Under the pieces are notes generated by a model, which saw only the letters and a program-made list of their open reading frames with translations, did not search any database and had not been told where the DNA came from. This document shows, piece after piece, positions 1,238 through 1,538 of a stretch of 39,595 nucleotides of DNA. The translations under genes were made by a program, and so were the position numbers. Source of the DNA: a virus; IMG/VR virus record IMGVR_UViG_3300030333_000188, positions 1-39,595 of that record; one strand, 5' to 3'. Position 1 is the stretch's first letter, and every line of letters starts with the position of its first letter.

Positions 1238-1244
1238 TATTTAG
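1238..1244 (-). promoter_or_regulatory. Late-promoter-like box CTAAATA
   Basis: CTAAATA on the minus strand, within TTTACTAAATAATT, resembles the CTAAATA/NATAAATA late promoters of T4-like cyanophages. It lies directly after the noncoding RNA terminator and before the aptamer, where a promoter for the small-ORF operon would be expected. Confidence 0.45.
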
Positions 1245-1245
1245 T

Positions 1246-1271
1246 AAAATAAAAAGAGGATGCGAACCCTC
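1246..1271 (-). terminator. Intrinsic terminator of the noncoding RNA
   Basis: The minus strand has GAGGG (1267-1271) pairing with TCCTC (1256-1260) around a TTCGCA loop, followed by TTTTTATTTT. The five-pair stem includes one G-U pair. It could be partly leaky toward the small-ORF genes. Confidence 0.7.
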
Positions 1272-1503
1272 CAATTAGGGAATTAACCCTACGCTTTTTG
1301 TAATGTTGTTGGGTAAAGGGGGAGGTTGGAATCCTGTATACCAACAAGAGATGGGCATTTCTACAGTTTAGAAAAACATCTCTGCCTAAGACCCGACTGG
1401 TAAGTCGATTCTCCTTTCGGAGCAGCACCACCTGTGTCTCATCACCTTAACTAGCTATATGCCAGTAAGTTTATTCAGTCACTCCCGATGTGTTGATCAG
1501 CAC
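1246..1503 (-). ncRNA. Structured noncoding RNA of about 260 nt, unassigned
   Basis: Bounded upstream by a strong sigma70 promoter and downstream by an intrinsic terminator, with no convincing ORF inside. Minus-strand hairpins: 1488-1505 (ATGTG/CACAT), 1446-1469 (nine pairs with one bulge, loop ATATA), 1411-1422 (CTCC-GAAA-GGAG, a GNRA tetraloop), 1394-1407 (CGACT/AGTCG), 1347-1383 (seven pairs, AGAGATG/CATCTCT, enclosing TTTCTA/TAGAAA), 1276-1291 (TAGGG/CCCTA). CCAACAA and TTGTTGG (1341-1347 with 1306-1312) close another domain. CTGC near 1423 and GCAG near 1385 could close a multiloop. I cannot match it to tRNA, tmRNA, 6S, RNase P or SRP RNA. T4 also makes stable small RNAs, but I claim no homology. 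The transcript start is estimated from the -10 box. Confidence 0.65.
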
Positions 1504-1509
1504 ATTTAT

Positions 1510-1538
1510 AATATAACAGTACCCTAATTATTTGTCAA
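1510..1538 (-). promoter_or_regulatory. Strong sigma70 promoter, TTGACA-N17-TATATT
   Basis: On the minus strand a perfect -35 TTGACA (1533-1538) is 17 bp from TATATT (1510-1515). Transcription should start near 1503-1505. It looks like a host sigma70 early promoter and has no protein gene directly behind it, which is the main argument for the noncoding RNA. Confidence 0.8.

Follow-up and report, generated by a model that had tools for sequence, protein, structure and literature searches.

The manA RNA was first described by Weinberg et al. 2010 (PMC2864571) from marine samples, gamma-proteobacteria and T4-like cyanophages, and was confidently called cis-regulatory there, possibly a riboswitch. 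Its Rfam type label is also cis-regulatory, and its Rfam alignment was fixed in release 14.3 (PMC7779021). Since 2010 it has been an orphan RNA treated as a riboswitch candidate; in the literature searched, we found neither an assigned function or ligand nor infection transcriptomes that name it. S-CREM1 is an example of an individual cyanophage with an annotated manA (PMC9964418), described as cis-regulatory only and, in the text of that paper, without comparison of site or copy number. The wcaG RNA (RF01761), likewise an orphan RNA of marine samples and cyanophages, was described beside manA and forms a separate family.

The window (the whole stretch of 39,595 nt analyzed, IMG/VR record IMGVR_UViG_3300030333_000188) contained a full-length match to manA (Rfam RF01745, model positions 1-192 of 192) at 1504..1315 on the minus strand, with a score of 180.4 bits against a gathering cut-off of 55.2 (E = 8.5e-49, cmscan). 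This was the sole Rfam match in the whole window, wcaG included among the families without one (cmscan). All helices of the model were found in the window copy, with one non-standard pair, within P1. Membership in the manA family is practically certain, and the RNA belongs to an already catalogued family, so its structure is genuine but not undescribed. The initial annotation had matched the stretch to no RNA family it knew and had called it the best candidate for something undescribed; both statements were wrong, and the Infernal search against Rfam that it had proposed removed the novelty. An undescribed family, with no point in its favor after searching and contradicted by the full-length match, was dropped as having a negligible probability. 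The elements of the locus are as follows.

1533..1538, minus strand: -35 hexamer TTGACA of a sigma70 promoter (consensus scan)
1510..1515, minus strand: -10 hexamer TATATT, with TG just before it (consensus scan)
1315..1504, minus strand: manA RNA, RF01745 (covariance-model match; covariation in relatives)
1489..1504, minus strand: P1, the 5′-terminal hairpin, beginning at the predicted transcription start (model alignment)
1482..1486, minus strand: P0 5′ strand GGGAG, closing the whole fold (model alignment, covariation)
1320..1324, minus strand: P0 3′ strand CUCCC (model alignment, covariation)
1255..1272, minus strand: intrinsic terminator after manA, its T run reaching approximately 1246
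1238..1244, minus strand: CTAAATA, resembling a T4-type late promoter, just past the terminator (consensus match only)

Covariation was decisive for the structure. When 48 diverse relatives were aligned and the Rfam structure was mapped onto the window (the length-variable P1 being left out), changes on both sides were observed in 26 of the 47 pairs, against a mean of 10.4 in shuffled alignments and no more than 6 in the slid controls, and 95.6% of cells were paired. P0 was paired in 100% of the sequences, with A-U replaced by U-A in three and G-C by A-U in two; helix 10 was weakly supported (62% paired). Among the matches listed, P1 varied from 4 to 10 pairs, often with a GACG loop. The folding energy of the stretch was unremarkable (-70.4 vs. 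-64.5 kcal/mol in shuffles, z = -1.18; 24 of 200 shuffles equally good) and was set aside as evidence, so that the case for a structure beyond chance is made by the covariation and the covariance-model score. The hairpins reported by the initial annotation, CTCC-GAAA-GGAG included, were present, and conservation with covariation in other cyanomyoviruses, its second proposed check, was found. Its 9-pair stem corresponds to a long stem that does exist, with seven pairs in the family model. It had also noted approximately 260 nt without a credible ORF, and a 64-aa GTG frame was indeed the only one spanning the RNA. Hypothetical proteins have been annotated over manA in P-SSM4 (L126, 2068-2241), S-SSM5 (L136, 2006-2212), P-HM2 (L132, 2055-2159 and 2131-2229) and P-HM1 (L133, 1955-2131). 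Those of P-SSM4 and S-SSM5 share one cluster, T4-GC 428; this gene is probably spurious, an artifact of the manA RNA.

The promoter described earlier was recovered as TTGACA-N17-TATATT at 1538..1510 (minus strand), with 11 of 12 consensus matches and TG ahead of the -10 hexamer. For comparison, at least 120 IMG/VR loci in addition to the window were collected by one exact 19-base pattern, which skews the set to close relatives. Among the matches listed, a sigma70 promoter with at least 10 of 12 matches was found in 96 of the 106 copies with enough upstream sequence; the frequency in random control windows was 2.6%. The first base of P1 lay mostly 4-6 nt after the -10 hexamer (among the matches listed), which is the expected start site. 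Several of the ten exceptions were misses of the scan, the last -10 base being A (L017, L104). In two loci (L005, L090) the promoter was absent and a tRNA ended at the base directly before P1; two others (L046, L095) had similar upstream sequence.

On the 3′ side of the window copy, the annotated intrinsic terminator was confirmed (GGAGGGTTCGCATCCTCT followed by TTTTTATTTT at 1272..1255, minus strand). A tRNA-like arm considered at this place (GGGTTCGCATCC) was rejected, no tRNA or tmRNA being found, and is hence the terminator hairpin. Counted from the end of the manA core, the terminator lay at +47 and the first ORF at +168 nt, a position other than that of a coding-gene 5′ UTR, and the sequence signals of a stand-alone RNA gene, its own promoter and its own 3′ end, were both present in the window. 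The window RNA resembles the manA of Weinberg et al. (PMC2864571) over its full-length sequence and structure, in all helices and in its cyanophage host range, but differs in being followed by a terminator and then 168 nt free of ORFs, with no obvious coding gene for which it would be the 5′ UTR.

Family-wide, the 3′ ends were mixed among the matches listed. Of the 94 listed loci that were non-redundant in their flanks, with ORFs and terminators called by simple scans, 49 had an ORF inside the first 100 nt after manA, at 10-92 nt, and no terminator; 21 (22%, the window included) had a terminator ahead of any ORF; 11 had an ORF at 101-250 nt; 8 (9%, L012 being assigned by eye) had a tRNA; and 5 had none of these. 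Terminators followed 28 of the 121 manA copies listed vs. 32 of 1050 controls (3%; P ~ 1e-13). In L014, L065 and S-SSM7 the final base of the manA model was also the first base of a tRNA-Gly, and a tRNA-Asn or tRNA-Asp started 7-18 nt past the core in seven other loci. A long-loop terminator (AAAGACCTAAGATGCAACT...GGGGCAGATGGTCTTT) whose loop is conserved was observed 12-54 nt after the core in L009, L062 and L088, and a similar one followed manA in L011, L012, L019 and L116. The CTAAATA at 1244-1238 (minus strand) would start the next unit after the manA terminator. Within 200 nt after manA, [CA]TAAATA occurred in 15 of the 28 terminator-bearing loci and 26 of the 93 others among the matches listed, and in 6.7% of controls; this enrichment suggests an early RNA set ahead of late units.

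Infernal found exactly one manA in each of the 14 manA-bearing complete cyanophage genomes (12 complete phages from BLAST hits and two of nine further cyanophages). The other seven of these nine had no match (Infernal), so manA is not essential. The 26 IMG/VR contigs, mostly fragments, also had one per record (among the matches listed). Six or more different sites were occupied among phages: the nrdB/pstS-talC region, before talC; after gp23 in several phages, P-HM1 and MED4-213 among them; before gp32 (P-HM2); after psbA and ferredoxin; between regA and purL; upstream of tRNA-Gly and gp43; and after a phosphate transporter gene in S-SSM4. Among the matches listed, the first gene after manA was gp32 in 21 loci and talC in 13, and what followed overall was inconsistent, comprising gp32, talC, small ORFs, capsid-region genes, tRNAs and terminators.

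The change of site was most direct in P-HM1 and P-HM2, two phages of high synteny that were isolated on one host from one water sample (PMC3037559). In P-HM1, manA followed gp23 and was absent ahead of gp32; P-HM2 showed the reverse, its copy being located between the gp32 -10 region and gp32. Among the matches listed, and where the context is known, the P-HM1 manA was closest to that of MED4-213, also after gp23, and the P-HM2 manA to three copies before gp32 (L036, L054 and L035). Because the closest relatives occupy matching sites in other phages, each copy was probably exchanged along with the DNA flanking it, and not moved inside one genome.

Three bacterial records also had manA by the pattern, labelled Flavobacteriales (L122), Prochlorococcus (L123) and Gammaproteobacteria (L124). 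Bacterial hosts were rejected for them, since around the RNA they were closest to cyanophages; in these records, phage DNA was probably binned or sorted along with bacteria. The gamma-proteobacterial members of Weinberg et al. (PMC2864571) were not recovered by the strict 19-base pattern.

Beyond the placement of the promoter, the terminator, the copy number and the changes of site, which are established from the sequences, we infer transcription, release of the RNA and action in trans. In the window phage, a host-type sigma70 promoter of its own would drive manA, the transcript would begin at the first base of P1 and adopt a multi-branched fold with P0 as the closing stem, and an RNA of approximately 250 nt would be released at the terminator at 1272-1255. 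Such a discrete, terminated transcript is likely in this phage. Rather than switching a single downstream gene, the RNA would itself be the product of a single-copy, early-expressed phage gene and would act in trans on machinery of the host or the phage. The initial annotation had already suggested a stable early RNA that could target host RNA or proteins. We give action in trans about an even chance, because manA occurs once per genome, at changing sites and with a conserved start, followed by tRNAs, terminators or unrelated genes. A gene switch would travel with its gene or be repeated, and the context of manA therefore fits the cis label poorly; this comparative context favors the trans reading over the Rfam label. 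It is possible, if a little short of even chances, that manA as a whole is misfiled as cis-regulatory and is a relocatable single-copy RNA gene of approximately 190 nt working in trans during infection. A promoter +1 or tRNA processing would then set its 5′ end, and a terminator or, again, tRNA processing its 3′ end. What weighs most against action in trans is that half of the copies would be 5′ UTRs, as implied by the 49 loci with a close ORF and no intervening terminator, and that gp32 and talC recur.

That same 5′-UTR placement, in about half of the loci listed, would suit a ligand-sensing leader, in which P0 and the core would fold upon metabolite binding and so control formation of the downstream terminator or translation of the gene. 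The conserved complex fold and the presence downstream of talC, thyX-like and other nucleotide or sugar genes (read from sequences) are also consistent with a riboswitch. Single copies, followed by unrelated genes, tRNAs or nothing, argue against it, as does the retention of gp32 by sister phages with or without manA. Among the matches listed, Shine-Dalgarno-like motifs preceded 7 of the 49 ORFs directly after manA vs. 61 of 209 other ORFs (P = 0.046), which mostly leaves manA without a ribosome site to mask. In the window, the 3′ strand of manA can pair with the 5′ arm of the terminator (-9.4 kcal/mol), but across the 24 terminator-bearing loci listed the mean was -5.5 kcal/mol with the own arm and -6.5 with swapped arms; an attenuator, strong in the window, was not supported as the mechanism of the family. 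We consider sensing of a ligand unlikely.

Structured RNAs at the 5′ start of phage transcripts are also known from the HK022 put RNAs and other processive antiterminators. Like put, manA may stand at the start of a phage transcript ahead of terminators and mixed genes; in many of its copies, though, no terminator follows. manA could be a generic module, a promoter with a stable 5′ leader that protects mRNA from 5′-end-dependent decay or promotes terminator read-through and senses nothing. The start of the 5′ hairpin at +1 in nearly all copies listed, the high diversity of downstream genes and the enrichment of terminators would all be expected of it, but the highly conserved core of approximately 170 nt goes far beyond the needs of a stabilizing hairpin, one copy per genome is odd for something generically useful, and many copies have a terminator, or an immediately adjoining tRNA, after them. 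This explanation is rather improbable.

Ligand hunts for manA presuppose cis regulation. If manA is instead an RNA that abundant ocean phages carry once per genome and that acts in trans, other experiments would fit, for which P-HM1 and P-HM2 are a ready-made comparison, and the takeover of marine cyanobacteria by phages would gain an RNA component.

The surroundings of manA in the window are listed below.

3027-1867: nrdB, upstream of manA
Also upstream of manA: two small ORFs
1234-1215, minus strand: perfect palindrome, downstream of manA
1214-1163, minus strand: near-threshold glutamine riboswitch (Rfam models)
1151-972, minus strand: 59-aa ORF of no known family, downstream of manA
932-810, minus strand: DUF4278 ORF, downstream of manA
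From 643, minus strand: talC, downstream of manA, running off the window

The match at 1214-1163, ahead of the 59-aa ORF, was complete but fell slightly short of the cut-offs (RF01739, 31.8 bits for a cut-off of 35; RF01704, 31.5 for 33). S-CREM1 (PMC9964418) is similar to the window in this respect, being a T4-like cyanomyovirus with the same RF01745 family and a glnA riboswitch elsewhere in its genome. At approximately 995-965 (minus strand), just before the DUF4278 ORF, a second GGGACGCAA...GGAACG stretch looks like the 3′ portion of a glutamine riboswitch, but the 5′ portion is absent and Rfam reported no match. Before talC, at 703-668 (minus strand), a TTGACA -35 hexamer lay inside the hairpin of an intrinsic terminator and was followed by a T run and a TATAAT-type -10 hexamer. 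A combined terminator-promoter of this kind was found upstream of 47 of 116 manA loci among the matches listed.
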